DNA from: Labia minor | Lineage: Eukaryota; Arthropoda; Insecta; Dermaptera; Spongiphoridae | DNA length: 64,000 nucleotides | Direction of reading: 5' to 3' | Assembly (NCBI GenBank): GCA_963082975.1 | Contig: OY720345.1 | Location: 33,178,611 to 33,242,610, forward strand | Part shown: positions 1 to 24,159 of the stretch, piece after piece | Layout of the letters: each line of letters begins with the position of its first letter | Numbering within the stretch: the first letter of the stretch is position 1 | The notes under the pieces: model-generated | The model's input: the letters and a program-made list of their open reading frames with translations, nothing else | What the model was told of the DNA's origin: nothing | Databases searched by the model: none | Translations under genes and position numbers: made by a program

Positions 1-781
1 TCATCTATTGGGCGCCTGAAGAGTCAACCGTTTTCGCCTGCAACACCATCTTGTGTTCGTATTTCACCAGTCCCATAGAGGTGCACCGCCATTTATTTAA
101 AATAGATATTTTACATTAAAAAGTTTTTACTTTTTAGCAAAGAAATTAATAAATATTGAAATTCTATTTTACTTATCTATTGTTAACTTAGTTTCCTAGT
201 AGAAAATAATTTTTCTAAGAGTGGGATAATTTTTCTAAGATTAATCTTAAATATTCTTATATTCCTTATAATATTTAAAGAAATAAAATAATTTTTTTTA
301 CATTTATTCACACTTCATAAAGTTTAAATGAAATTGGATAAAAAATGTAGTTTCACTATAATTAGAATTATGAGTTGTTTACAATGCTGTTGATTTTAAA
401 AAATAAAATTTGAAAAAATATTGCTAGAATGGCTTATGAGAAATGCAACAAAGATAAACATTAAATCTCTTTAAAATTAAATAAATCAGATGTTTAAAAT
501 TACTAATTCTTATAATATCATTTAAATAAATGATTATTTAATTTTAATTTTAAGTTCAATGTATATTACAAATAATGTCACAATGGAAGTGGATATGGAG
601 ATAATTTGTGGATTCTTTAAATTTTCTGGACTTTAAAAACAAATCAACAAAATGTTAAAAGAATTCGTCTGTTTAATTAAAACTTAATTCAATTAGTTAC
701 ATATAAATAAAAGAACACATGATATAAATATAATTGATAAAAAATAATTTAGGTTTGTTGCCTTTATATTAAATGTAATGT
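1..781. other. Upstream block of an off-window copy plus AT-rich 3' flank
   Basis: Bases 1-95 are the GC-richer distal promoter block of a ZMAT2 copy lying left of the window. Bases 96-781 are very AT-rich and are the 3' flank of the first gene. A short direct repeat sits at 206-220 and 226-240. On the minus strand, ATTAAA at about 671-676 and AATATA near 766-771 are possible weak poly(A) signals downstream of the stop. No other gene is seen. The equivalent flank recurs in every unit, at 2490-3177, 4886-5573, 7282-7967, 9676-10363, 12072-12759, 14468-15153, 16862-17549, 19258-19945 and 21654-22339. Confidence 0.6.
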
Positions 782-1862
782 TTATAGATAATCTGATAGT
801 TTAAAAATTTTTTTTTTTGAAGAACCAAATCCAGAAAAGCCCATAATTAATGCTAATTCAGACTCTGCTTCAGTAGGAGGTTTTACTTCTTCCAATTTTC
901 GTTTTCTATCTTTTCTTATTTCTCTTCTAGATTCTCTAAGTTTTTCTTCCTAATAAAAATTACAAAAAAAATATTAGATTAAAATATTACATTAAAATAA
1001 TAAACGATATATAATAAAAGTACAAAATATACCTCCTCTTTTAATTCTTTCATTCGCACCTCAATATCATAATCTTTTTTCATTTCTTCCATTTTTTTTT
1101 TATTCGATTCGAATCTTTTCTTTACTTGATCTAATGAGGATCTTTCGATTCTCATCGACATACCAAGATTTCTTTGATCTAAAATTAAAAGAAAAACATT
1201 CTAATTAATTTTATAAATCCTATATATTGATTATAAGTTTTGTATGTTTAGTTCTTTAAATAAACATGAATAAAGCCTTAGATAATTTACTGCACATGCT
1301 TTCTAAAGCTATTTTATAACATGAGTAAAATCAGATTTATTTTAATTTCCTTGAATTTCGATTCAACTAAAGGTCAAACTAAAATTAAAGTTAAAATTTT
1401 AGGATGTTAGAAATTTAAATTAAATATAGTTTTTCAAGCACGATTAAATTCACTTTTGACAATTTAAATTAATATAATTTACTTACGTTTTTTTTCATTA
1501 ATATGGTCAAGGAAATTAATTGAGTCTTTGACGACACAATCACACACATTACAATAATATCCTCCACTTTGGGAACAGGGTGTATTTTTTGTAATAAGAA
1601 TACTTTTACCGAGTTTAGATTTTAAATCAACTCGGTAATCTCTTTGTTTTAAAAGTTCTCTTTTAATAGGTACTGGTTTTTGTTTGGCTTTTTCTTGTGC
1701 ATCCAATTCTTCCTGTATTCTGTCACTTGCCAAACGTTCGTATTCATCTCTGTCCCATTTTCTTCTATGATCTTCATATTTCTAAAATCATTAAAAAAAT
1801 AGAATATAAAATGTTTTATTATTATTTTTAAAATATTAAATAATTTAACTAACATCTGCCAT
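782..1862 (-). CDS. ZMAT2: ZMAT2 / Snu23-type zinc-finger splicing factor, copy 1
   Basis: Nuclear spliceosomal protein of the ZMAT2/Snu23 family, which joins the spliceosome with the U4/U6.U5 tri-snRNP before activation. Exons in transcription order are 1862-1854, 1781-1487, 1178-1033 and 949-782. Introns are 72, 308 and 83 bp, all GT-AG. The joined CDS is 618 nt, 205 aa; the human protein is about 199. Visible landmarks are the N-terminal KWDRDEYERL (11-20), VKREL-like PIKREL (41-46), GGYYCNVCDC (76-85), a U1-like C2H2 finger with C80, C83, H96 and H102, GMSMRIERSS (107-116), a basic coiled-coil-like stretch (about 120-172) and the family C-terminal MGFSGFGSSKKK (186-197). The last zinc-ligand codon, H102, is split by intron 2. 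The start shown gives MAD before the conserved region. An upstream ATG at 2263 on a separate exon would give MVLN in the same frame. This is the reference copy for the array. Confidence 0.95.
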
Positions 1863-2251
1863 TGTAAAATAAAATTAATGTTTGATTAACGGTTAAAATA
1901 TGTTTTATCTTTTAAACATAAAATAAAAAATATCATTTGGTTTAAAAAGAAAATTTAGTAAAATAGAGATTAATTTATAATTATATTCACACAAGAAGTG
2001 TCAATCACAGAGCATTATAAAATTTGCAACGATTAATAAAACAAAAAGACATTGGTTATTTTATTGGGTTAAAAATTAATTTTATTAGACTTTTAAATTA
2101 ATAAAAATTGATTAATTTCTAAAAAATATATAACACTTAAAATAAAATGAGATTTTTCATATAAAATTAAATTCTAAATATATGCGCATATAAAAAATAA
2201 TTCATAATTACTAAATAATAAAATAATTTAAATAATTAAAAATTTACTTAC
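1863..2251 (-). other. AT-rich leader or first intron of ZMAT2
   Basis: About 390 bp of AT-rich sequence separates the MAD start codon from the candidate upstream exon. It would be intron if the upstream exon is used. No ORF or RNA gene is seen. It contains the short palindrome TATGCGCATA near 2181. It recurs in each unit, for example 4259-4647, 6655-7043 and 9049-9437. Confidence 0.5.
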
Positions 2252-2263
2252 ATTTAATACCAT
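2252..2263 (-). other. Possible alternative first coding exon of ZMAT2 copy 1
   Basis: On the minus strand an ATG at 2263 is followed by three codons and a strong donor, AAAT then GTAAGT, at 2251-2246. Its phase matches exon 2 at 1781, so splicing here would skip the 9-nt MAD exon and start the protein MVLN. The donor is closer to consensus than the GTTAGT after the MAD exon. It may also be a 5' UTR exon; the sequence alone does not decide. The same site recurs upstream of all nine genes, for example with its ATG at 4659, 7055, 9449, 11845, 14241, 16635, 19031 and 21427. Confidence 0.45.
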
Positions 2264-2489
2264 GTTTGCTGGGTTTGTTTCAAATATTATGAGTACTGAT
2301 GGTATGTGGGTGTCGAGTTTGACATTCAAATAATTGCAATGAATTCGGAAGGCATGTGGGTGGGGGTGATCTGCGGTTATTTTTATTTGCGGTGTCATCT
2401 ATTGGGCGCCTGAAGAGTCAACCGTTTTCGCCTGCAACACCATCTTGTGTTCGTATTTCACCAGTCCCATTGAGGTGCACCGCCATTTA
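2263..2489 (-). promoter_or_regulatory. GC-richer upstream block of ZMAT2 (probable promoter)
   Basis: This ~225-bp island stands out from the AT-rich surroundings and lies directly upstream of the gene. It contains two G-rich direct elements, ATGTGGGTG near 2302 and GCATGTGGGTGGGGGTG near 2352. It also has the sequence TGTCATCTATTGG at 2393-2405, whose reverse complement resembles the CTCF core, and an ATGGCGGTGC motif at its distal end on the minus strand. No clear TATA box or initiator is seen. Equivalent blocks are at 4659-4885, 7055-7281, 9449-9675, 11845-12071, 14241-14467, 16635-16861, 19031-19257 and 21427-21653. That each gene keeps its own block suggests each copy can be transcribed. 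Confidence 0.5.
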
Positions 2490-3177
2490 TTTAAAATAGA
2501 TATTTTACATTAAAAAGTTTTTACTTTTTAGCAAAGAAATTAATAAATATTGAAATTCTATTTTACTTATCTATTGTTAACTTAGTTTCCTAGTAGAAAA
2601 TAATTTTTCTAAGAGTGGGATAATTTTTCTAAGATTAATCTTAAATATTCTTATATTCCTTATAATATTTAAAGAAATAAAATAATTTTTTTTACATTTA
2701 TTCACACTTCATAAAGTTTAAATGAAATTGGATAAAAAATGTAGTTTCACTATAATTAGAATTATGAGTTGTTTACAATGCTGTTGATTTTAAAAAATAA
2801 AATTTGAAAAAATATTGCTAGAATGGCTTATGAGAAATGCAACAAAGATAAACATTAAATCTCTTTAAAATTAAATAAATCAGATGTTTAAAATTACTAA
2901 TTCTTATAATATCATTTAAATAAATGATTATTTAATTTTAATTTTAAGTTCAATGTATATTACAATTAATGTCACAATGGAAGTGGATATGGAGATAATT
3001 TGTGGATTCTTTAAATTTTCTGGACTTTAAAAACAAATCAACAAAATGTTAAAAGAATTCGTCTGTTTAATTAAAACTTAATTCAATTAGGTACATATAA
3101 ATATAAAAGAACACATGATATAAATATAATTGATAAAAAATAATTTAGGTTTGTTGCCTTTATATTAAATGTAATGT

Positions 3178-4258
3178 TTATAGATAATCTGATAGTTTAA
3201 AAATTTTTTTTTTTGAAGAACCAAATCCAGAAAAGCCCATAATTAATGCTAATTCAGACTCTGCTTCAGTAGGAGGTTTTACTTCTTCCAATTTTCGTTT
3301 TCTATCTTTTCTTATTTCTCTTCTAGATTCTCTAAGTTTTTCTTCCTAATAAAAATTACAAAAAAAATATTAGATTAAAATATTACATTAAAATAATAAA
3401 CGATATATAATAAAAGTACAAAATATACCTCCTCTTTTAATTCTTTCATTCGCACCTCAATATCATAATCTTTTTTCATTTCTTCCATTTTTTTTTTATT
3501 CGATTCGAATCTTTTCTTTACTTGATCTAATGAGGATCTTTCGATTCTCATCGACATACCAAGATTTCTTTGATCTAAAATTAAAAGAAAAACATTCTAA
3601 TTAATTTTATAAATCCTATATATTGATTATAAGTTTTGTATGTTTAGTTCTTTAAATAAACATGAATAAAGCCTTAGATAATTTACTGCACATGCTTTCT
3701 AAAGCTATTTTATAACATGAGTAAAATCAGATTTATTTTAATTTCCTTGAATTTCGATTCAACTAAAGGTCAAACTAAAATTAAAGTTAAAATTTTAGGA
3801 TGTTAGAAATTCAAATTAAATATAGTTTTTCAAGCACGATTAAATTCACTTTTGACAATTTAAATTAATATAATTTACTTACGTTTTTTTTCATTAATAT
3901 GGTCAAGGAAATTAATTGAGTCTTTGACGACACAATCACACACATTACAATAATATCCTCCACTTTGGGAACAGGGTGTATTTTTTGTAATAAGAATACT
4001 TTTACCGAGTTTAGATTTTAAATCAACTCGGTAATCTCTTTGTTTTAAAAGTTCTCTTTTAATAGGTACTGGTTTTTGTTTGGCTTTTTCTTGTGCATCC
4101 AATTCTTCCTGTATTCTGTCACTTGCCAAACGTTCGTATTCATCTCTGTCCCATTTTCTTCTATGATCTTCATATTTCTAAAATCATTAAAAAAATAGAA
4201 TATAAAATGTTTTATTATTATTTTTAAAATATTAAATAATTTAACTAACATCTGCCAT
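3178..4258 (-). CDS. ZMAT2: ZMAT2 splicing factor, copy 2
   Basis: Exons are 4258-4250, 4177-3883, 3574-3429 and 3345-3178, coding for the same 205 aa as copy 1 with all splice sites intact. Intron 2 carries a private T-to-C change near 3811. The upstream unit end has the T/C variant pair (TTTTAAAT and GCCGGG), unlike copy 1. Confidence 0.95.
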
Positions 4259-5573
4259 TGTAAAATAAAATTAATGTTTGATTAACGGTTAAAATATGTT
4301 TTATCTTTTAAACATAAAATAAAAAATATCATTTGGTTTAAAAAGAAAATTTAGTAAAATAGAGATTAATTTATAATTATATTCACACAAGAAGTGTCAA
4401 TCACAGAGCATTATAAAATTTGCAACGATTAATAAAACAAAAAGACATTGGTTATTTTATTGGGTTAAAAATTAATTTTATTAGACTTTTAAATTAATAA
4501 AAATTGATTAATTTCTAAAAAATATATAACACTTAAAATAAAATGAGATTTTTCATATAAAATTAAATTTTAAATATATGCGCATATAAAAAATAATTCA
4601 TAATTACTAAATAATAAAATAATTTAAATAATTAAAAATTTACTTACATTTAATACCATGTTTGCCGGGTTTGTTTCAAATATTATGAGTACTGATGGTA
4701 TGTGGGTGTCGAGTTTGACATTCAAATAATTGCAATGAATTCGGAAGGCATGTGGGTGGGGGTGATCTGCGGTTATTTTTATTTGCGGTGTCATCTATTG
4801 GGCGCCTGAAGAGTCAACCGTTTTCGCCTGCAACACCATCTTGTGTTCGTATTTCACCAGTCCCATTGAGGTGCACCGCCATTTATTTAAAATAGATATT
4901 TTACATTAAAAAGTTTTTACTTTTTAGCAAAGAAATTAATAAATATTGAAATTCTATTTTACTTATCTATTGTTAACTTAGTTTCCTAGTAGAAAATAAT
5001 TTTTCTAAGAGTGGGATAATTTTTCTAAGATTAATCTTAAATATTCTTATATTCCTTATAATATTTAAAGAAATAAAATAATTTTTTTTACATTTATTCA
5101 CACTTCATAAAGTTTAAATGAAATTGGATAAAAAATGTAGTTTCACTATAATTAGAATTATGAGTTGTTTACAATGCTGTTGATTTTAAAAAATAAAATT
5201 TGAAAAAATATTGCTAGAATGGCTTATGAGAAATGCAACAAAGATAAACATTAAATCTCTTTAAAATTAAATAAATCAGATGTTTAAAATTACTAATTCT
5301 TATAATATCATTTAAATAAATGATTATTTAATTTTAATTTTAAGTTCAATGTATATTACAATTAATGTCACAATGGAAGTGGATATGGAGATAATTTGTG
5401 GATTCTTTAAATTTTCTGGACTTTAAAAACAAATCAACAAAATGTTAAAAGAATTCGTCTGTTTAATTAAAACTTAATTCAATTAGGTACATATAAATAT
5501 AAAAGAACACATGATATAAATATAATTGATAAAAAATAATTTAGGTTTGTTGCCTTTATATTAAATGTAATGT

Positions 5574-6654
5574 TTATAGATAATCTGATAGTTTAAAAAT
5601 TTTTTTTTTTGAAGAACCAAATCCAGAAAAGCCCATAATTAATGCTAATTCAGACTCTGCTTCAGTAGGAGGTTTTACTTCTTCCAATTTTCGTTTTCTA
5701 TCTTTTCTTATTTCTCTTCTAGATTCTCTAAGTTTTTCTTCCTAATAAAAATTACAAAAAAAATATTAGATTAAAATATTACATTAAAATAATAAACGAT
5801 ATATAATAAAAGTACAAAATATACCTCCTCTTTTAATTCTTTCATTCGCACCTCAATATCATAATCTTTTTTCATTTCTTCCATTTTTTTTTTATTCGAT
5901 TCGAATCTTTTCTTTACTTGATCTAATGAGGATCTTTCGATTCTCATCGACATACCAAGATTTCTTTGATCTAAAATTAAAAGAAAAACATTCTAATTAA
6001 TTTTATAAATCCTATATATTGATTATAAGTTTTGTATGTTTAGTTCTTTAAATAAACATGAATAAAGCCTTAGATAATTTACTGCACATGCTTTCTAAAG
6101 CTATTTTATAACATGAGTAAAATCAGATTTATTTTAATTTCCTTGAATTTCGATTCAACTAAAGGTCAAACTAAAATTAAAGTTAAAATTTTAGGATGTT
6201 AGAAATTTAAATTAAATATAGTTTTTCAAGCACGATTAAATTCACTTTTGACAATTTAAATTAATATAATTTACTTACGTTTTTTTTCATTAATATGGTC
6301 AAGGAAATTAATTGAGTCTTTGACGACACAATCACACACATTACAATAATATCCTCCACTTTGGGAACAGGGTGTATTTTTTGTAATAAGAATACTTTTA
6401 CCGAGTTTAGATTTTAAATCAACTCGGTAATCTCTTTGTTTTAAAAGTTCTCTTTTAATAGGTACTGGTTTTTGTTTGGCTTTTTCTTGTGCATCCAATT
6501 CTTCCTGTATTCTGTCACTTGCCAAACGTTCGTATTCATCTCTGTCCCATTTTCTTCTATGATCTTCATATTTCTAAAATCATTAAAAAAATAGAATATA
6601 AAATGTTTTATTATTATTTTTAAAATATTAAATAATTTAACTAACATCTGCCAT
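5574..6654 (-). CDS. ZMAT2: ZMAT2 splicing factor, copy 3
   Basis: Exons are 6654-6646, 6573-6279, 5970-5825 and 5741-5574. Coding sequence and splice sites match copy 1 by eye. It belongs to the 2396-bp unit type and has the same upstream variant pair as copy 2. Confidence 0.95.
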
Positions 6655-7967
6655 TGTAAAATAAAATTAATGTTTGATTAACGGTTAAAATATGTTTTAT
6701 CTTTTAAACATAAAATAAAAAATATCATTTGGTTTAAAAAGAAAATTTAGTAAAATAGAGATTAATTTATAATTATATTCACACAAGAAGTGTCAATCAC
6801 AGAGCATTATAAAATTTGCAACGATTAATAAAACAAAAAGACATTGGTTATTTTATTGGGTTAAAAATTAATTTTATTAGACTTTTAAATTAATAAAAAT
6901 TGATTAATTTCTAAAAAATATATAACACTTAAAATAAAATGAGATTTTTCATATAAAATTAAATTTTAAATATATGCGCATATAAAAAATAATTCATAAT
7001 TACTAAATAATAAAATAATTTAAATAATTAAAAATTTACTTACATTTAATACCATGTTTGCCGGGTTTGTTTCAAATATTATGAGTACTGATGGTATGTG
7101 GGTGTCGAGTTTGACATTCAAATAATTGCAATGAATTCGGAAGGCATGTGGGTGGGGGTGATCTGCGGTTATTTTTATTTGCGGTGTCATCTATTGGGCG
7201 CCTGAAGAGTCAACCGTTTTCGCCTGCAACACCATCTTGTGTTCGTATTTCACCAGTCCCATTGAGGTGCACCGCCATTTATTTAAAATAGATATTTTAC
7301 ATTAAAAAGTTTTTACTTTTTAGCAAAGAAATTAATAAATATTGAAATTCTATTTTACTTATCTATTGTTAACTTAGTTTCCTAGTAGAAAATAATTTTT
7401 CTAAGAGTGGGATAATTTTTCTAAGATTAATCTTAAATATTCTTATATTCCTTATAATATTTAAAGAAATAAAATAATTTTTTTTACATTTATTCACACT
7501 TCATAAAGTTTAAATGAAATTGGATAAAAAATGTAGTTTCACTATAATTAGAATTATGAGTTGTTTACAATGCTGTTGATTTTAAAAAATAAAATTTGAA
7601 AAAATATTGCTAGAATGGCTTATGAGAAATGCAACAAAGATAAACATTAAATCTCTTTAAAATTAAATAAATCAGATGTTTAAAATTACTAATTCTTATA
7701 ATATCATTTAAATAAATGATTATTTAATTTTAATTTTAAGTTCAATGTATATTACAATTAATGTCACAATGGAAGTGGATATGGAGATAATTTGTGGATT
7801 CTTTAAATTTTCTGGACTTTAAAAACAAATCAACAAAATGTTAAAAGAATTCGTCTGTTTAATTAAAACTTAATTCAATTAGGTACATATAAATAAAAGA
7901 ACACATGATATAAATATAATTGATAAAAAATAATTTAGGTTTGTTGCCTTTATATTAAATGTAATGT

Positions 7968-9048
7968 TTATAGATAATCTGATAGTTTAAAAATTTTTTT
8001 TTTTGAAGAACCAAATCCAGAAAAGCCCATAATTAATGCTAATTCAGACTCTGCTTCAGTAGGAGGTTTTACTTCTTCCAATTTTCGTTTTCTATCTTTT
8101 CTTATTTCTCTTCTAGATTCTCTAAGTTTTTCTTCCTAATAAAAATTACAAAAAAAATATTAGATTAAAATATTACATTAAAATAATAAACGATATATAA
8201 TAAAAGTACAAAATATACCTCCTCTTTTAATTCTTTCATTCGCACCTCAATATCATAATCTTTTTTCATTTCTTCCATTTTTTTTTTATTCGATTCGAAT
8301 CTTTTCTTTACTTGATCTAATGAGGATCTTTCGATTCTCATCGACATACCAAGATTTCTTTGATCTAAAATTAAAAGAAAAACATTCTAATTAATTTTAT
8401 AAATCCTATATATTGATTATAAGTTTTGTATGTTTAGTTCTTTAAATAAACATGAATAAAGCCTTAGATAATTTACTGCACATGCTTTCTAAAGCTATTT
8501 TATAACATGAGTAAAATCAGATTTATTTTAATTTCCTTGAATTTCGATTCAACTAAAGGTCAAACTAAAATTAAAGTTAAAATTTTAGGATGTTAGAAAT
8601 TTAAATTAAATATAGTTTTTCAAGCACGATTAAATTCACTTTTGACAATTTAAATTAATATAATTTACTTACGTTTTTTTTCATTAATATGGTCAAGGAA
8701 ATTAATTGAGTCTTTGACGACACAATCACACACATTACAATAATATCCTCCACTTTGGGAACAGGGTGTATTTTTTGTAATAAGAATACTTTTACCGAGT
8801 TTAGATTTTAAATCAACTCGGTAATCTCTTTGTTTTAAAAGTTCTCTTTTAATAGGTACTGGTTTTTGTTTGGCTTTTTCTTGTGCATCCAATTCTTCCT
8901 GTATTCTGTCACTTGCCAAACGTTCGTATTCATCTCTGTCCCATTTTCTTCTATGATCTTCATATTTCTAAAATCATTAAAAAAATAGAATATAAAATGT
9001 TTTATTATTATTTTTAAAATATTAAATAATTTAACTAACATCTGCCAT
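7968..9048 (-). CDS. ZMAT2: ZMAT2 splicing factor, copy 4
   Basis: Exons are 9048-9040, 8967-8673, 8364-8219 and 8135-7968, with no coding difference from copy 1. It lies in a short (2394-bp) unit lacking a TA dinucleotide in the 3' flank near 7893. Confidence 0.95.
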
Positions 9049-10363
9049 TGTAAAATAAAATTAATGTTTGATTAACGGTTAAAATATGTTTTATCTTTTA
9101 AACATAAAATAAAAAATATCATTTGGTTTAAAAAGAAAATTTAGTAAAATAGAGATTAATTTATAATTATATTCACACAAGAAGTGTCAATCACAGAGCA
9201 TTATAAAATTTGCAACGATTAATAAAACAAAAAGACATTGGTTATTTTATTGGGTTAAAAATTAATTTTATTAGACTTTTAAATTAATAAAAATTGATTA
9301 ATTTCTAAAAAATATATAACACTTAAAATAAAATGAGATTTTTCATATAAAATTAAATTTTAAATATATGCGCATATAAAAAATAATTCATAATTACTAA
9401 ATAATAAAATAATTTAAATAATTAAAAATTTACTTACATTTAATACCATGTTTGCCGGGTTTGTTTCAAATATTATGAGTACTGATGGTATGTGGGTGTC
9501 GAGTTTGACATTCAAATAATTGCAATGAATTCGGAAGGCATGTGGGTGGGGGTGATCTGCGGTTATTTTTATTTGCGGTGTCATCTATTGGGCGCCTGAA
9601 GAGTCAACCGTTTTCGCCTGCAACACCATCTTGTGTTCGTATTTCACCAGTCCCATTGAGGTGCACCGCCATTTATTTAAAATAGATATTTTACATTAAA
9701 AAGTTTTTACTTTTTAGCAAAGAAATTAATAAATATTGAAATTCTATTTTACTTATCTATTGTTAACTTAGTTTCCTAGTAGAAAATAATTTTTCTAAGA
9801 GTGGGATAATTTTTCTAAGATTAATCTTAAATATTCTTATATTCCTTATAATATTTAAAGAAATAAAATAATTTTTTTTACATTTATTCACACTTCATAA
9901 AGTTTAAATGAAATTGGATAAAAAATGTAGTTTCACTATAATTAGAATTATGAGTTGTTTACAATGCTGTTGATTTTAAAAAATAAAATTTGAAAAAATA
10001 TTGCTAGAATGGCTTATGAGAAATGCAACAAAGATAAACATTAAATCTCTTTAAAATTAAATAAATCAGATGTTTAAAATTACTAATTCTTATAATATCA
10101 TTTAAATAAATGATTATTTAATTTTAATTTTAAGTTCAATGTATATTACAATTAATGTCACAATGGAAGTGGATATGGAGATAATTTGTGGATTCTTTAA
10201 ATTTTCTGGACTTTAAAAACAAATCAACAAAATGTTAAAAGAATTCGTCTGTTTAATTAAAACTTAATTCAATTAGGTACATATAAATATAAAAGAACAC
10301 ATGATATAAATATAATTGATAAAAAATAATTTAGGTTTGTTGCCTTTATATTAAATGTAATGT

Positions 10364-11444
10364 TTATAGATAATCTGATAGTTTAAAAAATTTTTTTTTT
10401 GAAGAACCAAATCCAGAAAAGCCCATAATTAATGCTAATTCAGACTCTGCTTCAGTAGGAGGTTTTACTTCTTCCAATTTTCGTTTTCTATCTTTTCTTA
10501 TTTCTCTTCTAGATTCTCTAAGTTTTTCTTCCTAATAAAAATTACAAAAAAAATATTAGATTAAAATATTACATTAAAATAATAAACGATATATAATAAA
10601 AGTACAAAATATACCTCCTCTTTTAATTCTTTCATTCGCACCTCAATATCATAATCTTTTTTCATTTCTTCCATTTTTTTTTTATTCGATTCGAAACTTT
10701 TCTTTACTTGATCTAATGAGGATCTTTCGATTCTCATCGACATACCAAGATTTCTTTGATCTAAAATTAAAAGAAAAACATTCTAATTAATTTTATAAAT
10801 CCTATATATTGATTATAAGTTTTGTATGTTTAGTTCTTTAAATAAACATGAATAAAGCCTTAGATAATTTACTGCACATGCTTTCTAAAGCTATTTTATA
10901 ACATGAGTAAAATCAGATTTATTTTAATTTCCTTGAATTTCGATTCAACTAAAGGTCAAACTAAAATTAAAGTTAAAATTTTAGGATGTTAGAAATTTAA
11001 ATTAAATATAGTTTTTCAAGCACGATTAAATTCACTTTTGACAATTTAAATTAATATAATTTACTTACGTTTTTTTTCATTAATATGGTCAAGGAAATTA
11101 ATTGAGTCTTTGACGACACAATCACACACATTACAATAATATCCTCCACTTTGGGAACAGGGTGTATTTTTTGTAATAAGAATACTTTTACCGAGTTTAG
11201 ATTTTAAATCAACTCGGTAATCTCTTTGTTTTAAAAGTTCTCTTTTAATAGGTACTGGTTTTTGTTTGGCTTTTTCTTGTGCATCCAATTCTTCCTGTAT
11301 TCTGTCACTTGCCAAACGTTCGTATTCATCTCTGTCCCATTTTCTTCTATGATCTTCATATTTCTAAAATCATTAAAAAAATAGAATATAAAATGTTTTA
11401 TTATTATTTTTAAAATATTAAATAATTTAACTAACATCTGCCAT
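10364..11444 (-). CDS. ZMAT2: ZMAT2 splicing factor, copy 5 (variant)
   Basis: Exons are 11444-11436, 11363-11069, 10760-10615 and 10531-10364. This is the only copy with amino-acid changes. R123 becomes S (AGA to AGT, base 10696) in the conserved VKKRFE segment after the zinc finger. I198 becomes F in the C-terminal tail, where the A/T runs at 10384-10400 are 6 and 10 in place of 5 and 11. Reading frame and splice sites stay intact. R123 lies in a conserved motif, so this copy may be functionally altered. An error in the homopolymer is possible for I198F but less so for R123S. Confidence 0.94.
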
Positions 11445-12759
11445 TGTAAAATAAAATTAATGTTTGATTAACGGTTAAAATATGTTTTATCTTTTAAACA
11501 TAAAATAAAAAATATCATTTGGTTTAAAAAGAAAATTTAGTAAAATAGAGATTAATTTATAATTATATTCACACAAGAAGTGTCAATCACAGAGCATTAT
11601 AAAATTTGCAACGATTAATAAAACAAAAAGACATTGGTTATTTTATTAGGTTAAAAATTAATTTTATTAGACTTTTAAATTAATAAAAATTGATTAATTT
11701 CTAAAAAATATATAACACTTAAAATAAAATGAGATTTTTCATATAAAATTAAATTCTAAATATATGCGCATATAAAAAATAATTCATAATTACTAAATAA
11801 TAAAATAATTTAAATAATTAAAAATTTACTTACATTTAATACCATGTTTGCTGGGTTTGTTTCAAATATTATGAGTACTGATGGTATGTGGGTGTCGAGT
11901 TTGACATTCAAATAATTGCAATGAATTCGGAAGGCATGTGGGTGGGGGTGATCTGCGGTTATTTTTATTTGCGGTGTCATCTATTGGGCGCCTGAAGAGT
12001 CAACCGTTTTCGCCTGCAACACCATCTTGTGTTCGTATTTCACCAGTCCCATTGAGGTGCACCGCCATTTATTTAAAATAGATATTTTACATTAAAAAGT
12101 TTTTACTTTTTAGCAAAGAAATTAATAAATATTGAAATTCTATTTTACTTATCTATTGTTAACTTAGTTTCCTAGTAGAAAATAATTTTTCTAAGAGTGG
12201 GATAATTTTTCTAAGATTAATCTTAAATATTCTTATATTCCTTATAATATTTAAAGAAATAAAATAATTTTTTTTACATTTATTCACACTTCATAAAGTT
12301 TAAATGAAATTGGATAAAAAATGTAGTTTCACTATAATTAGAATTATGAGTTGTTTACAATGCTGTTGATTTTAAAAAATAAAATTTGAAAAAATATTGC
12401 TAGAATGGCTTATGAGAAATGCAACAAAGATAAACATTAAATCTCTTTAAAATTAAATAAATCAGATGTTTAAAATTACTAATTCTTATAATATCATTTA
12501 AATAAATGATTATTTAATTTTAATTTTAAGTTCAATGTATATTACAATTAATGTCACAATGGAAGTGGATATGGAGATAATTTGTGGATTCTTTAAATTT
12601 TCTGGACTTTAAAAACAAATCAACAAAATGTTAAAAGAATTCGTCTGTTTAATTAAAACTTAATTCAATTAGGTACATATAAATATAAAAGAACACATGA
12701 TATAAATATAATTGATAAAAAATAATTTAGGTTTGTTGCCTTTATATTAAATGTAATGT

Positions 12760-13840
12760 TTATAGATAATCTGATAGTTTAAAAATTTTTTTTTTTGAAG
12801 AACCAAATCCAGAAAAGCCCATAATTAATGCTAATTCAGACTCTGCTTCAGTAGGAGGTTTTACTTCTTCCAATTTTCGTTTTCTATCTTTTCTTATTTC
12901 TCTTCTAGATTCTCTAAGTTTTTCTTCCTAATAAAAATTACAAAAAAAATATTAGATTAAAATATTACATTAAAATAATAAACGATATATAATAAAAGTA
13001 CAAAATATACCTCCTCTTTTAATTCTTTCATTCGCACCTCAATATCATAATCTTTTTTCATTTCTTCCATTTTTTTTTTATTCGATTCGAATCTTTTCTT
13101 TACTTGATCTAATGAGGATCTTTCGATTCTCATCGACATACCAAGATTTCTTTGATCTAAAATTAAAAGAAAAACATTCTAATTAATTTTATAAATCCTA
13201 TATATTGATTATAAGTTTTGTATGTTTAGTTCTTTAAATAAACATGAATAAAGCCTTAGATAATTTACTGCACATGCTTTCTAAAGCTATTTTATAACAT
13301 GAGTAAAATCAGATTTATTTTAATTTCCTTGAATTTCGATTCAACTAAAGGTCAAACTAAAATTAAAGTTAAAATTTTAGGATGTTAGAAATTTAAATTA
13401 AATATAGTTTTTCAAGCACGATTAAATTCACTTTTGACAATTTAAATTAATATAATTTACTTACGTTTTTTTTCATTAATATGGTCAAGGAAATTAATTG
13501 AGTCTTTGACGACACAATCACACACATTACAATAATATCCTCCACTTTGGGAACAGGGTGTATTTTTTGTAATAAGAATACTTTTACCGAGTTTAGATTT
13601 TAAATCAACTCGGTAATCTCTTTGTTTTAAAAGTTCTCTTTTAATAGGTACTGGTTTTTGTTTGGCTTTTTCTTGTGCATCCAATTCTTCCTGTATTCTG
13701 TCACTTGCCAAACGTTCGTATTCATCTCTGTCCCATTTTCTTCTATGATCTTCATATTTCTAAAATCATTAAAAAAATAGAATATAAAATGTTTTATTAT
13801 TATTTTTAAAATATTAAATAATTTAACTAACATCTGCCAT
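12760..13840 (-). CDS. ZMAT2: ZMAT2 splicing factor, copy 6
   Basis: Exons are 13840-13832, 13759-13465, 13156-13011 and 12927-12760. The protein is identical to copy 1. The unit is 2396 bp, with the C/T upstream variant pair (TTCTAAAT and GCTGGG). Confidence 0.95.
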
Positions 13841-15153
13841 TGTAAAATAAAATTAATGTTTGATTAACGGTTAAAATATGTTTTATCTTTTAAACATAAA
13901 ATAAAAAATATCATTTGGTTTAAAAAGAAAATTTAGTAAAATAGAGATTAATTTATAATTATATTCACACAAGAAGTGTCAATCACAGAGCATTATAAAA
14001 TTTGCAACGATTAATAAAACAAAAAGACATTGGTTATTTTATTGGGTTAAAAATTAATTTTATTAGACTTTTAAATTAATAAAAATTGATTAATTTCTAA
14101 AAAATATATAACACTTAAAATAAAATGAGATTTTTCATATAAAATTAAATTCTAAATATATGCGCATATAAAAAATAATTCATAATTACTAAATAATAAA
14201 ATAATTTAAATAATTAAAAATTTACTTACATTTAATACCATGTTTGCTGGGTTTGTTTCAAATATTATGAGTACTGATGGTATGTGGGTGTCGAGTTTGA
14301 CATTCAAATAATTGCAATGAATTCGGAAGGCATGTGGGTGGGGGTGATCTGCGGTTATTTTTATTTGCGGTGTCATCTATTGGGCGCCTGAAGAGTCAAC
14401 CGTTTTCGCCTGCAACACCATCTTGTGTTCGTATTTCACCAGTCCCATTGAGGTGCACCGCCATTTATTTAAAATAGATATTTTACATTAAAAAGTTTTT
14501 ACTTTTTAGCAAAGAAATTAATAAATATTGAAATTCTATTTTACTTATCTATTGTTAACTTAGTTTCCTAGTAGAAAATAATTTTTCTAAGAGTGGGATA
14601 ATTTTTCTAAGATTAATCTTAAATATTCTTATATTCCTTATAATATTTAAAGAAATAAAATAATTTTTTTTACATTTATTCACACTTCATAAAGTTTAAA
14701 TGAAATTGGATAAAAAATGTAGTTTCACTATAATTAGAATTATGAGTTGTTTACAATGCTGTTGATTTTAAAAAATAAAATTTGAAAAAATATTGCTAGA
14801 ATGGCTTATGAGAAATGCAACAAAGATAAACATTAAATCTCTTTAAAATTAAATAAATCAGATGTTTAAAATTACTAATTCTTATAATATCATTTAAATA
14901 AATGATTATTTAATTTTAATTTTAAGTTCAATGTATATTACAATTAATGTCACAATGGAAGTGGATATGGAGATAATTTGTGGATTCTTTAAATTTTCTG
15001 GACTTTAAAAACAAATCAACAAAATGTTAAAAGAATTCGTCTGTTTAATTAAAACTTAATTCAATTAGGTACATATAAATAAAAGAACACATGATATAAA
15101 TATAATTGATAAAAAATAATTTAGGTTTGTTGCCTTTATATTAAATGTAATGT

Positions 15154-16234
15154 TTATAGATAATCTGATAGTTTAAAAATTTTTTTTTTTGAAGAACCAA
15201 ATCCAGAAAAGCCCATAATTAATGCTAATTCAGACTCTGCTTCAGTAGGAGGTTTTACTTCTTCCAATTTTCGTTTTCTATCTTTTCTTATTTCTCTTCT
15301 AGATTCTCTAAGTTTTTCTTCCTAATAAAAATTACAAAAAAAATATTAGATTAAAATATTACATTAAAATAATAAACGATATATAATAAAAGTACAAAAT
15401 ATACCTCCTCTTTTAATTCTTTCATTCGCACCTCAATATCATAATCTTTTTTCATTTCTTCCATTTTTTTTTTATTCGATTCGAATCTTTTCTTTACTTG
15501 ATCTAATGAGGATCTTTCGATTCTCATCGACATACCAAGATTTCTTTGATCTAAAATTAAAAGAAAAACATTCTAATTAATTTTATAAATCCTATATATT
15601 GATTATAAGTTTTGTATGTTTAGTTCTTTAAATAAACATGAATAAAGCCTTAGATAATTTACTGCACATGCTTTCTAAAGCTATTTTATAACATGAGTAA
15701 AATCAGATTTATTTTAATTTCCTTGAATTTCGATTCAACTAAAGGTCAAACTAAAATTAAAGTTAAAATTTTAGGATGTTAGAAATTTAAATTAAATATA
15801 GTTTTTCAAGCACGATTAAATTCACTTTTGACAATTTAAATTAATATAATTTACTTACGTTTTTTTTCATTAATATGGTCAAGGAAATTAATTGAGTCTT
15901 TGACGACACAATCACACACATTACAATAATATCCTCCACTTTGGGAACAGGGTGTATTTTTTGTAATAAGAATACTTTTACCGAGTTTAGATTTTAAATC
16001 AACTCGGTAATCTCTTTGTTTTAAAAGTTCTCTTTTAATAGGTACTGGTTTTTGTTTGGCTTTTTCTTGTGCATCCAATTCTTCCTGTATTCTGTCACTT
16101 GCCAAACGTTCGTATTCATCTCTGTCCCATTTTCTTCTATGATCTTCATATTTCTAAAATCATTAAAAAAATAGAATATAAAATGTTTTATTATTATTTT
16201 TAAAATATTAAATAATTTAACTAACATCTGCCAT
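15154..16234 (-). CDS. ZMAT2: ZMAT2 splicing factor, copy 7
   Basis: Exons are 16234-16226, 16153-15859, 15550-15405 and 15321-15154. The protein is identical to copy 1. It lies in a short (2394-bp) unit, as copies 1, 4 and 10 do. Confidence 0.95.
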
Positions 16235-17549
16235 TGTAAAATAAAATTAATGTTTGATTAACGGTTAAAATATGTTTTATCTTTTAAACATAAAATAAAA
16301 AATATCATTTGGTTTAAAAAGAAAATTTAGTAAAATAGAGATTAATTTATAATTATATTCACACAAGAAGTGTCAATCACAGAGCATTATAAAATTTGCA
16401 ACGATTAATAAAACAAAAAGACATTGGTTATTTTATTGGGTTAAAAATTAATTTTATTAGACTTTTAAATTAATAAAAATTGATTAATTTCTAAAAAATA
16501 TATAACACTTAAAATAAAATGAGATTTTTCATATAAAATTAAATTCTAAATATATGCGCATATAAAAAATAATTCATAATTACTAAATAATAAAATAATT
16601 TAAATAATTAAAAATTTACTTACATTTAATACCATGTTTGCTGGGTTTGTTTCAAATATTATGAGTACTGATGGTATGTGGGTGTCGAGTTTGACATTCA
16701 AATAATTGCAATGAATTCGGAAGGCATGTGGGTGGGGGTGATCTGCGGTTATTTTTATTTGCGGTGTCATCTATTGGGCGCCTGAAGAGTCAACCGTTTT
16801 CGCCTGCAACACCATCTTGTGTTCGTATTTCACCAGTCCCATTGAGGTGCACCGCCATTTATTTAAAATAGATATTTTACATTAAAAAGTTTTTACTTTT
16901 TAGCAAAGAAATTAATAAATATTGAAATTCTATTTTACTTATCTATTGTTAACTTAGTTTCCTAGTAGAAAATAATTTTTCTAAGAGTGGGATAATTTTT
17001 CTAAGATTAATCTTAAATATTCTTATATTCCTTATAATATTTAAAGAAATAAAATAATTTTTTTTACATTTATTCACACTTCATAAAGTTTAAATGAAAT
17101 TGGATAAAAAATGTAGTTTCACTATAATTAGAATTATGAGTTGTTTACAATGCTGTTGATTTTAAAAAATAAAATTTGAAAAAATATTGCTAGAATGGCT
17201 TATGAGAAATGCAACAAAGATAAACATTAAATCTCTTTAAAATTAAATAAATCAGATGTTTAAAATTACTAATTCTTATAATATCATTTAAATAAATGAT
17301 TATTTAATTTTAATTTTAAGTTCAATGTATATTACAATTAATGTCACAATGGAAGTGGATATGGAGATAATTTGTGGATTCTTTAAATTTTCTGGACTTT
17401 AAAAACAAATCAACAAAATGTTAAAAGAATTCGTCTGTTTAATTAAAACTTAATTCAATTAGGTACATATAAATATAAAAGAACACATGATATAAATATA
17501 ATTGATAAAAAATAATTTAGGTTTGTTGCCTTTATATTAAATGTAATGT

Positions 17550-18630
17550 TTATAGATAATCTGATAGTTTAAAAATTTTTTTTTTTGAAGAACCAAATCC
17601 AGAAAAGCCCATAATTAATGCTAATTCAGACTCTGCTTCAGTAGGAGGTTTTACTTCTTCCAATTTTCGTTTTCTATCTTTTCTTATTTCTCTTCTAGAT
17701 TCTCTAAGTTTTTCTTCCTAATAAAAATTACAAAAAAAATATTAGATTAAAATATTACATTAAAATAATAAACGATATATAATAAAAGTACAAAATATAC
17801 CTCCTCTTTTAATTCTTTCATTCGCACCTCAATATCATAATCTTTTTTCATTTCTTCCATTTTTTTTTTATTCGATTCGAATCTTTTCTTTACTTGATCT
17901 AATGAGGATCTTTCGATTCTCATCGACATACCAAGATTTCTTTGATCTAAAATTAAAAGAAAAACATTCTAATTAATTTTATAAATCCTATATATTGATT
18001 ATAAGTTTTGTATGTTTAGTTCTTTAAATAAACATGAATAAAGCCTTAGATAATTTACTGCACATGCTTTCTAAAGCTATTTTATAACATGAGTAAAATC
18101 AGATTTATTTTAATTTCCTTGAATTTCGATTCAACTAAAGGTCAAACTAAAATTAAAGTTAAAATTTTAGGATGTTAGAAATTTAAATTAAATATAGTTT
18201 TTCAAGCACGATTAAATTCACTTTTGACAATTTAAATTAATATAATTTACTTACGTTTTTTTTCATTAATATGGTCAAGGAAATTAATTGAGTCTTTGAC
18301 GACACAATCACACACATTACAATAATATCCTCCACTTTGGGAACAGGGTGTATTTTTTGTAATAAGAATACTTTTACCGAGTTTAGATTTTAAATCAACT
18401 CGGTAATCTCTTTGTTTTAAAAGTTCTCTTTTAATAGGTACTGGTTTTTGTTTGGCTTTTTCTTGTGCATCCAATTCTTCCTGTATTCTGTCACTTGCCA
18501 AACGTTCGTATTCATCTCTGTCCCATTTTCTTCTATGATCTTCATATTTCTAAAATCATTAAAAAAATAGAATATAAAATGTTTTATTATTATTTTTAAA
18601 ATATTAAATAATTTAACTAACATCTGCCAT
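17550..18630 (-). CDS. ZMAT2: ZMAT2 splicing factor, copy 8
   Basis: Exons are 18630-18622, 18549-18255, 17946-17801 and 17717-17550. The protein is identical to copy 1. The unit is 2396 bp with the C/T upstream variant pair. Confidence 0.95.
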
Positions 18631-19945
18631 TGTAAAATAAAATTAATGTTTGATTAACGGTTAAAATATGTTTTATCTTTTAAACATAAAATAAAAAATA
18701 TCATTTGGTTTAAAAAGAAAATTTAGTAAAATAGAGATTAATTTATAATTATATTCACACAAGAAGTGTCAATCACAGAGCATTATAAAATTTGCAACGA
18801 TTAATAAAACAAAAAGACATTGGTTATTTTATTGGGTTAAAAATTAATTTTATTAGACTTTTAAATTAATAAAAATTGATTAATTTCTAAAAAATATATA
18901 ACACTTAAAATAAAATGAGATTTTTCATATAAAATTAAATTCTAAATATATGCGCATATAAAAAATAATTCATAATTACTAAATAATAAAATAATTTAAA
19001 TAATTAAAAATTTACTTACATTTAATACCATGTTTGCTGGGTTTGTTTCAAATATTATGAGTACTGATGGTATGTGGGTGTCGAGTTTGACATTCAAATA
19101 ATTGCAATGAATTCGGAAGGCATGTGGGTGGGGGTGATCTGCGGTTATTTTTATTTGCGGTGTCATCTATTGGGCGCCTGAAGAGTCAACCGTTTTCGCC
19201 TGCAACACCATCTTGTGTTCGTATTTCACCAGTCCCATTGAGGTGCACCGCCATTTATTTAAAATAGATATTTTACATTAAAAAGTTTTTACTTTTTAGC
19301 AAAGAAATTAATAAATATTGAAATTCTATTTTACTTATCTATTGTTAACTTAGTTTCCTAGTAGAAAATAATTTTTCTAAGAGTGGGATAATTTTTCTAA
19401 GATTAATCTTAAATATTCTTATATTCCTTATAATATTTAAAGAAATAAAATAATTTTTTTTACATTTATTCACACTTCATAAAGTTTAAATGAAATTGGA
19501 TAAAAAATGTAGTTTCACTATAATTAGAATTATGAGTTGTTTACAATGCTGTTGATTTTAAAAAATAAAATTTGAAAAAATATTGCTAGAATGGCTTATG
19601 AGAAATGCAACAAAGATAAACATTAAATCTCTTTAAAATTAAATAAATCAGATGTTTAAAATTACTAATTCTTATAATATCATTTAAATAAATGATTATT
19701 TAATTTTAATTTTAAGTTCAATGTATATTACAATTAATGTCACAATGGAAGTGGATATGGAGATAATTTGTGGATTCTTTAAATTTTCTGGACTTTAAAA
19801 ACAAATCAACAAAATGTTAAAAGAATTCGTCTGTTTAATTAAAACTTAATTCAATTAGGTACATATAAATATAAAAGAACACATGATATAAATATAATTG
19901 ATAAAAAATAATTTAGGTTTGTTGCCTTTATATTAAATGTAATGT

Positions 19946-21026
19946 TTATAGATAATCTGATAGTTTAAAAATTTTTTTTTTTGAAGAACCAAATCCAGAA
20001 AAGCCCATAATTAATGCTAATTCAGACTCTGCTTCAGTAGGAGGTTTTACTTCTTCCAATTTTCGTTTTCTATCTTTTCTTATTTCTCTTCTAGATTCTC
20101 TAAGTTTTTCTTCCTAATAAAAATTACAAAAAAAATATTAGATTAAAATATTACATTAAAATAATAAACGATATATAATAAAAGTACAAAATATACCTCC
20201 TCTTTTAATTCTTTCATTCGCACCTCAATATCATAATCTTTTTTCATTTCTTCCATTTTTTTTTTATTCGATTCGAATCTTTTCTTTACTTGATCTAATG
20301 AGGATCTTTCGATTCTCATCGACATACCAAGATTTCTTTGATCTAAAATTAAAAGAAAAACATTCTAATTAATTTTATAAATCCTATATATTGATTATAA
20401 GTTTTGTATGTTTAGTTCTTTAAATAAACATGAATAAAGCCTTAGATAATTTACTGCACATGCTTTCTAAAGCTATTTTATAACATGAGTAAAATCAGAT
20501 TTATTTTAATTTCCTTGAATTTCGATTCAACTAAAGGTCAAACTAAAATTAAAGTTAAAATTTTAGGATGTTAGAAATTTAAATTAAATATAGTTTTTCA
20601 AGCACGATTAAATTCACTTTTGACAATTTAAATTAATATAATTTACTTACGTTTTTTTTCATTAATATGGTCAAGGAAATTAATTGAGTCTTTGACGACA
20701 CAATCACACACATTACAATAATATCCTCCACTTTGGGAACAGGGTGTATTTTTTGTAATAAGAATACTTTTACCGAGTTTAGATTTTAAATCAACTCGGT
20801 AATCTCTTTGTTTTAAAAGTTCTCTTTTAATAGGTACTGGTTTTTGTTTGGCTTTTTCTTGTGCATCCAATTCTTCCTGTATTCTGTCACTTGCCAAACG
20901 TTCGTATTCATCTCTGTCCCATTTTCTTCTATGATCTTCATATTTCTAAAATCATTAAAAAAATAGAATATAAAATGTTTTATTATTATTTTTAAAATAT
21001 TAAATAATTTAACTAACATCTGCCAT
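19946..21026 (-). CDS. ZMAT2: ZMAT2 splicing factor, copy 9 (last complete)
   Basis: Exons are 21026-21018, 20945-20651, 20342-20197 and 20113-19946. The protein is identical to copy 1. The upstream unit end carries the T/C variant pair seen after copies 2-4, so variants are not simply ordered along the array. It is the last copy with a full promoter block, at 21427-21653. Confidence 0.95.
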
Positions 21027-22339
21027 TGTAAAATAAAATTAATGTTTGATTAACGGTTAAAATATGTTTTATCTTTTAAACATAAAATAAAAAATATCAT
21101 TTGGTTTAAAAAGAAAATTTAGTAAAATAGAGATTAATTTATAATTATATTCACACAAGAAGTGTCAATCACAGAGCATTATAAAATTTGCAACGATTAA
21201 TAAAACAAAAAGACATTGGTTATTTTATTGGGTTAAAAATTAATTTTATTAGACTTTTAAATTAATAAAAATTGATTAATTTCTAAAAAATATATAACAC
21301 TTAAAATAAAATGAGATTTTTCATATAAAATTAAATTTTAAATATATGCGCATATAAAAAATAATTCATAATTACTAAATAATAAAATAATTTAAATAAT
21401 TAAAAATTTACTTACATTTAATACCATGTTTGCCGGGTTTGTTTCAAATATTATGAGTACTGATGGTATGTGGGTGTCGAGTTTGACATTCAAATAATTG
21501 CAATGAATTCGGAAGGCATGTGGGTGGGGGTGATCTGCGGTTATTTTTATTTGCGGTGTCATCTATTGGGCGCCTGAAGAGTCAACCGTTTTCGCCTGCA
21601 ACACCATCTTGTGTTCGTATTTCACCAGTCCCATTGAGGTGCACCGCCATTTATTTAAAATAGATATTTTACATTAAAAAGTTTTTACTTTTTAGCAAAG
21701 AAATTAATAAATATTGAAATTCTATTTTACTTATCTATTGTTAACTTAGTTTCCTAGTAGAAAATAATTTTTCTAAGAGTGGGATAATTTTTCTAAGATT
21801 AATCTTAAATATTCTTATATTCCTTATAATATTTAAAGAAATAAAATAATTTTTTTTACATTTATTCACACTTCATAAAGTTTAAATGAAATTGGATAAA
21901 AAATGTAGTTTCACTATAATTAGAATTATGAGTTGTTTACAATGCTGTTGATTTTAAAAAATAAAATTTGAAAAAATATTGCTAGAATGGCTTATGAGAA
22001 ATGCAACAAAGATAAACATTAAATCTCTTTAAAATTAAATAAATCAGATGTTTAAAATTACTAATTCTTATAATATCATTTAAATAAATGATTATTTAAT
22101 TTTAATTTTAAGTTCAATGTATATTACAATTAATGTCACAATGGAAGTGGATATGGAGATAATTTGTGGATTCTTTAAATTTTCTGGACTTTAAAAACAA
22201 ATCAACAAAATGTTAAAAGAATTCGTCTGTTTAATTAAAACTTAATTCAATTAGGTACATATAAATAAAAGAACACATGATATAAATATAATTGATAAAA
22301 AATAATTTAGGTTTGTTGCCTTTATATTAAATGTAATGT

Positions 22340-22507
22340 TTATAGATAATCTGATAGTTTAAAAATTTTTTTTTTTGAAGAACCAAATCCAGAAAAGCCC
22401 ATAATTAATGCTAATTCAGACTCTGCTTCAGTAGGAGGTTTTACTTCTTCCAATTTTCGTTTTCTATCTTTTCTTATTTCTCTTCTAGATTCTCTAAGTT
22501 TTTCTTC
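22340..22507 (-). pseudogene. ZMAT2: ZMAT2 copy 10, only the last exon left
   Basis: Exon 4 (56 codons including the stop) is complete and unchanged, with its acceptor AG at 22509-22508. The sequence then departs from the unit about 12 bases into intron 3. Exons 1-3 and the promoter are missing because the junction with array B falls there. It cannot make ZMAT2 unless transcribed from array B sequence. It marks the right breakpoint of the ZMAT2 amplicon. Confidence 0.93.
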
Positions 22508-22560
22508 CTAATAAAAATTACCGTTCACAGTGTTAGAGGAGTGTGTCTGTCTGTCTGTGT
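22508..22560. other. Junction of arrays A and B with templated filler
   Basis: Array A sequence is recognisable up to 22521. Bases 22520-22541 (22 nt) are identical, in the same orientation, to 27996-28017 inside the array B gene (codons for PPFTVLEE and neighbours). From 22544 the sequence is array B TCTG-repeat sequence. The filler overlaps array A by 2 nt (AC) and is followed by 2 unexplained bases (TG). The (AT)n run that precedes the TCTG repeat at every other unit boundary is missing here. Confidence 0.85.
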
Positions 22561-22737
22561 AGGTGTCTGTCAAATACTCAAAAACTACCCGTCCGATTGC
22601 GATGAAACTTTCAGGGAATGTTGTGGGCGTCCCAGGGAAGGTTTTACTGTAGTTAAATCCAAAATTAATTTATCCAAAATTAATTTAATTAGTAATATTT
22701 TGGTAAAAGTCTATTTATGGTTACCATGGTTACATTG
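22544..22737. repeat. Dispersed repeat R1 with TCTG microsatellite
   Basis: A (TCTG)n run leads into a body containing CCGTCCGATTGCGATGAAAC and ending near the palindromic GGTTACCATGGTTAC. The style (short tetranucleotide run next to an ATGAAA-type motif) is common in insect non-autonomous repeats; I cannot assign a class. Other copies start at about 29494, 36433, 43374, 50335 and 57600. The + frame across it stays open by chance and is not treated as coding. Confidence 0.6.
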
Positions 22738-23315
22738 AAAAATTTACAATAAATAAATAAAAATAATTGGAAATCTTTTCAACTTATTATTTTGATAAAT
22801 TTTATTAATATTTTTAATTTTTTTTAAACTGCAAAAAATAACATACCCCTAGTAATAGTTGTAATAAAAAAAAAATATAAATCACAATGTAAGTAAAATA
22901 TTGAATCGTTTTATTTATATTGTTTGAATTATTGTTTGAATATTTATTAAATTTATATATAGATTAATTTACATGTTTAAATGTATATTTAATAAATTTA
23001 TTTATCAAACATATATCTTTATTTTTACGGTCACACACACACACACACACATATTTAAAAATTAATTTATTAAAATATATATTATATAATATATTATATA
23101 TAGTATATAATTTAATATATATATAAATATATATATATTCTGAAATTAATTTTAAATTATATAAATATATTAGAAATTAATTTAATATAATTTAACACAT
23201 AATAATATATTAAAATATTTTATTTTATATATACATAATTTAGTAATACTGATTATTAATGTAAATATAAATAATAATATTTAATATGGCAAATATGTAA
23301 AATTTTGTAAAGAAT
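22738..23315. other. AT-rich spacer with R3 end stub and AC repeat
   Basis: Mostly low-complexity AT sequence. Bases 23002-23033 match the terminal part of repeat R3 and abut a (CA)n run at 23032-23051. In unit 5 the same stub is attached to the rest of R3, so here it is a deletion remnant. From 23052 to 23200 the DNA is a mesh of TA-rich palindromes likely to form cruciforms. No gene is seen. Confidence 0.6.
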
Positions 23316-23470
23316 GTATCAGAAGTTTAGTGTCTAACATTCTGGCGTATTGCGCATGCGTATATCGGTCGGGTCGGTCGGTCGGGTCGTTTTGGAATCT
23401 CACGCGAGTTCTATACTTTTTCCCCATCCCGCAAAAGTGCTCAACGCCGCTAAAGAAGTTTTCACTTCAA
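23316..23470. promoter_or_regulatory. GC-rich island 1 with NRF-1-like site and GGTC repeats
   Basis: TGCGCATGCG at 23351-23360 closely matches the NRF-1 palindrome core, and a run of GGTC/GGGTC repeats follows at 23366-23390. A CACGCGAGTT motif near 23401 is echoed as CGCGCGAGTT near 23721. This looks like a TATA-less promoter or other regulatory island, but no obvious exon follows on either strand. Copies are at 30268-30422, 37208-37362, 44149-44303, 51434-51588 and 58375-58529. Confidence 0.4.
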
Positions 23471-23690
23471 TAAATATAACTATACATTATATTATTATTT
23501 AGATTATCCCAGTATAAAATATAAAAGATAAATAAAAAAATTTATTTTTTTGTTATTTATTTAAATTAAAAAAAATATTTTAAATTAATATTAAATAGAA
23601 TAAATACATATGGAAGTTATATTACACGTATATAAATAAATGAAAAGAATGAAAAGTTATTTTGTCACAATTTTACAATGATAATGGTGA
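23471..23690. other. AT-rich spacer between GC islands
   Basis: Low-complexity AT-rich sequence with short A/T homopolymers. No ORF, RNA gene or clear motif is seen. Confidence 0.5.
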
Positions 23691-23990: not shown

Positions 23991-24107
23991 CAGAAACAAT
24001 TTCAAATAATTTTAATATATCTATTAATGTAATAAAAAACAGATAGGCATATAACATAAATATTTTTAATTTTATTTTATTTATAATATATATGTAAGAC
24101 CAGGCTG

Positions 24108-24135: not shown

Positions 24136-24159
24136 TATAATTTTAAATTAAAAAAAAAA

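Follow-up and report, generated by a model that had tools for sequence, protein, structure and literature searches.

The 64,000-nucleotide stretch of insect DNA analyzed here (the window) contains two unrelated tandem gene arrays side by side. Nine complete copies and a truncated tenth copy of a 2.4-kb unit holding the spliceosome gene ZMAT2/SNU23 (array 1) are joined directly to a series of 6.94-kb units that each hold one orphan gene (array 2). Both arrays, their intact genes and the templated junction between them can be read directly in the sequence, and within the window many copies are more than 99% identical and keep open frames, as in an ampliconic gene family. We judge the chances to be about even that the stretch as a whole represents an ampliconic block of recent origin.

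The ZMAT2 array

Array 1 occupies bases 1-22521, where nine complete units of 2394 or 2396 bp and a truncated tenth follow one another head to tail. Unit starts were set by an anchor sequence, whose spacing is 2394 or 2396, and self-BLAST of the window gave 99.7-99.9% identity at each unit lag. These results bear out the earlier note on this DNA, which had described nine complete, nearly identical 2.4-kb units plus a truncated tenth, with an intact four-exon ZMAT2 gene in each complete unit; the array end that it placed at 22521 is exact in the self-comparison. The note made no mention of the second tandem array, joined directly at about 22542. Array 1 is already running at the start of the window and its left end lies beyond it, and it is a fair inference that further units extend leftward. 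Its units are the following.

1..2394, minus strand: array 1 unit 1, complete ZMAT2 (coding exons 2252-2263, 1487-1781, 1033-1178 and 782-949)
2395..4790, minus strand: array 1 unit 2 (coding exons 4648-4659, 3883-4177, 3429-3574 and 3178-3345)
4791..7186, minus strand: array 1 unit 3
7187..9580, minus strand: array 1 unit 4
9581..11976, minus strand: array 1 unit 5, its ZMAT2 bearing an R-to-S and an I-to-F missense change, both private
11977..14372, minus strand: array 1 unit 6
14373..16766, minus strand: array 1 unit 7
16767..19162, minus strand: array 1 unit 8
19163..21558, minus strand: array 1 unit 9
21559..22521, minus strand: truncated tenth unit, retaining by its coordinates just the 3' flank and the last coding exon, with the break in intron 3

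On sequence similarity, the identity of the array-1 gene as ZMAT2/SNU23 is secure. The gene encodes 206 amino acids in four coding exons on the minus strand of each of the nine complete units; the first coding exon was found in all nine (9/9), and the other three are translated in all nine, with frames open in every complete copy. In unit 2, the coding sequence measures 621 nt with the stop and is interrupted by three GT..AG introns (470, 308 and 83 nt), which makes this an intron-bearing gene rather than a processed copy. Upstream in the same unit lies an initiator-like TCAGT (4691-4695), a sequence that serves as an arthropod initiator, and the start codon has a good context (CAAACATGG at 4656-4664). 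The protein is similar over its full length to human ZMAT2, with a U1-type zinc finger and the C-terminal block MGFSGFGSSKK. It matched PDB chain 5o9z_N (E 1.1e-77) and, second, the 23-kDa tri-snRNP protein in 5nrl (E 1.9e-13), and zf-C2H2_jaz (PF12171) scored above the cut-off. The relatives numbered 1391 proteins at E <= 1e-3; among the best 120 of these 1391, the top ones were insects, namely Polyneoptera and Hemiptera. The query used in the Pfam, PDB and relatives searches differed from the ZMAT2 protein only at its extreme ends, the body being the same. Judged by composition, the codon-position G+C of 0.425/0.29/0.184, as against 0.108-0.198 in the introns, is the pattern of a long-used coding gene. 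A viral origin of ZMAT2 was rejected, as no relative was found in viral contigs and none of 39 pattern-matched stretches was confirmed.

To our knowledge, multiplication of a normally single core spliceosome gene has rarely been reported, and a limited literature search on ZMAT2 duplication returned no tandem ZMAT2 array in titles or abstract openings. The earlier note had taken ZMAT2 to be a normally single-copy housekeeping component of the spliceosome, and its standing as a conserved gene usually present once is supported by the available part of one study, which places ZMAT2 among zinc-finger genes "resistant to deletion/expansion" and gives a single homologue in Daphnia (PMC2889900). Additional copies do occur in mammals, for which the accessible text of another study describes Zmat2 pseudogenes and an opossum duplicate (PMC6995233). 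Those mammalian pseudogenes are mostly dispersed, intron-less and processed, however, whereas the array-1 copies are tandem and intron-bearing.

One explanation for the array, which the earlier note offered alongside that of a passenger in a selfish amplification, is selection on ZMAT2 dosage, in which extra splicing factor would be useful in some tissue and the whole gene with its start region would have been amplified. In keeping with this, the complete unit holds the whole gene together with initiator-like sequence and start context, and eight of the nine ZMAT2 proteins are identical. However, the description of ZMAT2 as resistant to expansion (PMC2889900, in the part available), the presence of missense changes in one copy and the amplification of an unrelated gene in the neighboring array all speak against dosage selection, which we consider unlikely.

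The nine full units differ by only 10 variable events, nine single-base changes and one 2-bp indel. Units 3 and 9 are identical, as are units 6 and 8, while private variants are carried by u1, u2 and u5. Two of the 10 events are coding, both of them missense and both in unit 5, where an R-to-S and an I-to-F change are private to that copy; one of the two sites is an arginine kept by all 14 relatives shown. Since the variable events are so few, array 1 neither proves nor disproves constraint. The same data bear on the possibility of a neutral tandem array on an ordinary autosome, where amplification through a circle or unequal exchange took in ZMAT2 and, separately, the orphan gene, bringing neither drive nor benefit and destined to be lost soon. 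The identity of 99.7-99.9% points to very recent expansion or homogenization, and unit 5 has already changed at the conserved arginine, both of which are consistent with neutrality. The open frame in every complete copy argues the other way, although it would be expected in so young an array anyway, and two adjoining gene arrays exceed what one accident would produce. We therefore regard a neutral origin as possible but doubtful.

The phylogenetic placement of the window protein varied with the tree. In a 48-row tree it grouped with seven polyneopteran-type rows (support 98/96), whereas a 29-row tree with the corrected protein did not recover that clade and placed it with cockroaches and termites (support 75/87). 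Eight groups were tested as placements in the 29-row tree: Coleoptera (p 0.012) and Heteroptera (0.023) were rejected, and among those kept were Hymenoptera (0.11), Lepidoptera (0.067), lice (0.16), scale insects (0.16) and stick insects (0.34). By its sequence relationships, the lineage is probably that of a hemimetabolous insect. The end branch of the window protein measured 0.36-0.37 in the two trees, as against 0-0.12 in six named polyneopteran rows, and comparably long branches (0.32-0.48) belong to the ordinary-gene rows of Megalurothrips, Cacopsylla and Homarus in the 29-row tree. Such a branch is what a free extra copy might show, and it may also be a property of the whole lineage. Among 94 columns with conservation of 95% or more across 120 relatives, the protein departs at three, within a range of 0 to 6 among the relatives, 68 of which (68/120) have none. 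As it is long-branched and yet departs at so few conserved columns, it appears to have evolved faster than its near kin without being broken. AT-driven drift as the cause of the long branch was unsupported, since residue gains and losses relative to Periplaneta are nearly balanced; relaxed constraint did not emerge from the data either.

The second array and its orphan gene

Array 2 fills the remainder of the window, with the following features.

22520..22541, plus strand: junction, a 22-nt match to 27996-28017 within the array-2 gene
22542..64000, plus strand: array 2, 6.94-kb units head to tail, from self-comparison
27239..27510, plus strand: putative 5' part of the orphan gene, with TCAGT at 27239-27243, a non-coding exon without ATG and an intron at 27399-27496 (GT..AG)
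27511..28209, plus strand: orphan gene, 233 aa, first copy, an open frame
50797..51119, no strand assigned: 323 bases of array-2 unit 5 only, 85-89% related to about 24873-25143 of the first unit

Units of array 2 start at about 22541, 29494, 36433, 43374, 50335 and 57600 and measure 6939-7265 bp, five being whole and the sixth cut by the right window edge. The fifth, at 7265 bp, has 323 extra bases. This piece is absent from five of the six units (5/6), and because TTAT stands at both bounds of the missing piece, those five units look as though they carry a 323-bp microhomology deletion, which we regard as the probable source of the difference. Alternatively, unit 5 may have undergone exchange with an older copy, since it has private changes on that side. 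Across the segment 25374-29335 (first-unit coordinates), which includes the orphan gene, the copies show 0 differences (the sixth compared to the window end), whereas 14 differences fall in the 2833 bases before 25374. Of these 14, one lies at the junction edge and six occur only in the fifth unit.

Several smaller features were noted along the array. The 33-bp tail of the 323-base segment occurs twice in the unit examined (29494-36432). Unit ends carry (AT)n tracts (29456-29493, 36407-36432, 43348-43373, 50289-50334 and 57574-57599), which vary from 26 to 46 bases and are longest in units 1 and 4. A near-perfect hairpin at 33148-33342, by offset about 26197-26391 in the first unit, has 89-nt arms that are 94% complementary and stand 17 nt apart; its form suggests a foldback or an element of the MITE type. 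Two DNA patterns from array 2 had no exact match in viral contigs. Rfam gave no match at gathering scores and tRNAs were likewise absent, so ribosomal, snRNA or other RNA gene arrays were rejected as candidates.

One clear long open frame was found per unit, with further copies of the orphan gene starting at 34462, 41403, 48344, 55629 and 62570, and its protein is identical in all six copies (6/6). This identity fits constraint, homogenization or youth. A non-coding first exon and an intron probably precede the frame. The codon-position G+C contrast is weak (0.318/0.283/0.253), as against the stronger one in ZMAT2. The protein gave nothing above the Pfam cut-off (best APG12, E 0.056) and no PDB match better than E 0.065; none of 285 candidates proved to be a relative at E 1e-3 or at E 10. 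A single-sequence structure model had a mean pLDDT of 36. A viral origin of this gene was also rejected, as viral contigs held no relative and none of 14 pattern-matched stretches was confirmed.

The orphan protein contains the sequence NKENEPP, which conforms to the KEN-box consensus [DNE]KENxxP as given in the available part of PMC5717348 and appears in 0.126% of 200000 shuffles. RRPL and FTVLEE sit just before the KEN box and resemble a D box and an ABBA motif only: RRPLRNYNFF has the R and L of the full D box RxxLx[D/E][O]xN[N/S] but not the acidic residue or N, and FTVLEE fails position 4 of the ABBA motif Fx[ILV][FY]x[DE]. With loosened patterns, the order of the three motifs recurred in 0.02% of shuffles. 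These figures flatter the motifs, however, because the motifs were sought after reading the protein and the patterns were loosened to fit. The KEN box offers a weak cell-cycle lead.

The junction and the fidelity of the assembly

At the boundary between the arrays, array 1 breaks off in intron 3 of a ZMAT2 copy, and array 2 sets in after an insert, beside its own (AT)n-TGTC microsatellite. The first two junction bases (AC) also belong to array 1, so that the insert comprises 20 nt (22522-22541), which reproduce exactly a stretch from within the orphan gene. A templated insert at a join is a residue of templated, microhomology-mediated end joining. The 20 nt can be taken as a sign of such joining, and an end-joining process of the microhomology or polymerase-theta type would have connected the two arrays.

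The alternative that the arrays are an assembly artifact, with the assembler repeating one or a few true copies too many times or making a chimeric join at 22521, draws on the identical units of array 1 (3 and 9; 6 and 8) and on the recurrence of shared array-2 variants every third unit (v1=v4, v2=v5, v3=v6), as a twice-walked graph loop could give. However, u1, u2 and u5 have their private variants and v5 its private 323-bp form, and the junction is hard to explain as misassembly because its 20-nt templated insert is a repair scar and not a typical misjoin. Furthermore, the every-third pattern is unsupported across array 1, even though the 2-bp indel there does recur every third unit: when unit order was permuted, 13420 of 20000 orders were as extreme on all 10 events and 10138 of 20000 on the three shared ones. 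The corresponding counts for array 2 were 32 of 720 on all 14 events and 48 of 720 on the five shared. A three-unit higher-order repeat common to both arrays was rejected, as permutation lends it weak support in array 2 and none in array 1; the array-2 pattern would follow either from duplication of a block of three units or from a graph loop. It is quite possible that the exact copy number is an artifact, off by some units. A wholly artificial array is disfavored by the private variants and the templated junction, and the artifact explanation seems to us quite improbable; both arrays appear to be faithfully assembled.

Origin of the block

A young ampliconic block could have arisen in a few steps. 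A complete 2.4-kb ZMAT2 gene, comprising the start region, four coding exons and 3' flank, would have been multiplied head to tail, as would a separate 6.94-kb segment with one orphan gene. A break next to the (AT)n tract of array 2 would have been sealed by end joining to a broken unit of array 1, the gap being filled with 20 nt copied out of the orphan gene, and the likeness of the copies would have come about through recent expansion and exchange. By analogy with known systems, the block may lie where recombination is low, for instance on a sex or B chromosome, and the array copies may be expressed in the germ line, with an ordinary ZMAT2 elsewhere. We counted in favor of the ampliconic block the open frames of ZMAT2 (9/9) and of the orphan gene (6/6), the adjacency of the arrays, the templated junction, the probable 323-bp deletion with its 4-bp microhomology and the long ZMAT2 branch, and against it the 10 events of array 1, whose small number cannot demonstrate selection. 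The second array, together with the templated junction, also makes an unstable ampliconic region, rich in repeats, somewhat more likely to us than simple selection for ZMAT2 dosage.

The closest likeness is to the Drosophila simulans clade, on whose Y chromosome, in the text available, the Lhk family (derived from the splicing kinase SRPK) and the CK2betates-Y family are amplified, most Lhk-1 copies lie near CK2betates-Y, frames are open and indels suggest MMEJ (PMC8794474). There, as here, two host genes have been amplified partly near each other, one of them related to splicing, with open frames and indels suggestive of microhomology-type repair. The gene and lineage differ, however: the present case concerns ZMAT2 and is known from sequence alone, its second amplified gene has no known relative where the Y-linked one is related to CK2 beta, and the templated junction belongs to the present window, such inserts not being described in the available text on the Y arrays (PMC8794474). 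Stellate and Su(Ste) of Drosophila melanogaster likewise involve a multicopy gene resembling a housekeeping regulator (the CK2 beta subunit), with about 40 or about 200 copies on different X chromosomes, and the accessible part of the source describes Stellate as a weak X-linked driver (PMC12057659). Unlike the array described here, Stellate is X-linked and has a Y-linked piRNA suppressor. B chromosomes also carry amplified genes or fragments, some intact and with cell-cycle genes enriched, and a putative B chromosome is reported from a leaf insect (Phasmatodea) in the available portions of PMC6406668, PMC7509943 and PMC13108252. The amplified genes are the point of resemblance, a B chromosome being no more than a conceivable setting for the present contig; as a term, ZMAT2 is absent from the leaf-insect paper's main text (0 occurrences). 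Because of the simulans-clade Y and B-chromosome precedents, as far as the available texts go, our preferred reading is an ampliconic block situated where recombination is low.

Such a region could also be selfish, with the orphan protein binding the APC/C by way of its KEN box and biasing segregation and the faster-changing ZMAT2 copies altering germ-line splicing to its advantage, but we hold this to be very improbable. In full, the selfish reading would make the block a two-gene driver built partly from a core spliceosome gene.

If the array is autosomal and silent, it would represent an ordinary young tandem duplication. Array 2 with its orphan gene is a finding that merits its own treatment. 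An intact tandem array of a spliceosome gene would provide a natural experiment on how cells put up with, silence or exploit a surplus of splicing factor, and the ZMAT2 array, lying beside a co-amplified orphan gene with a preserved frame, is a good place to look for segregation conflict beyond Drosophila and mammals.
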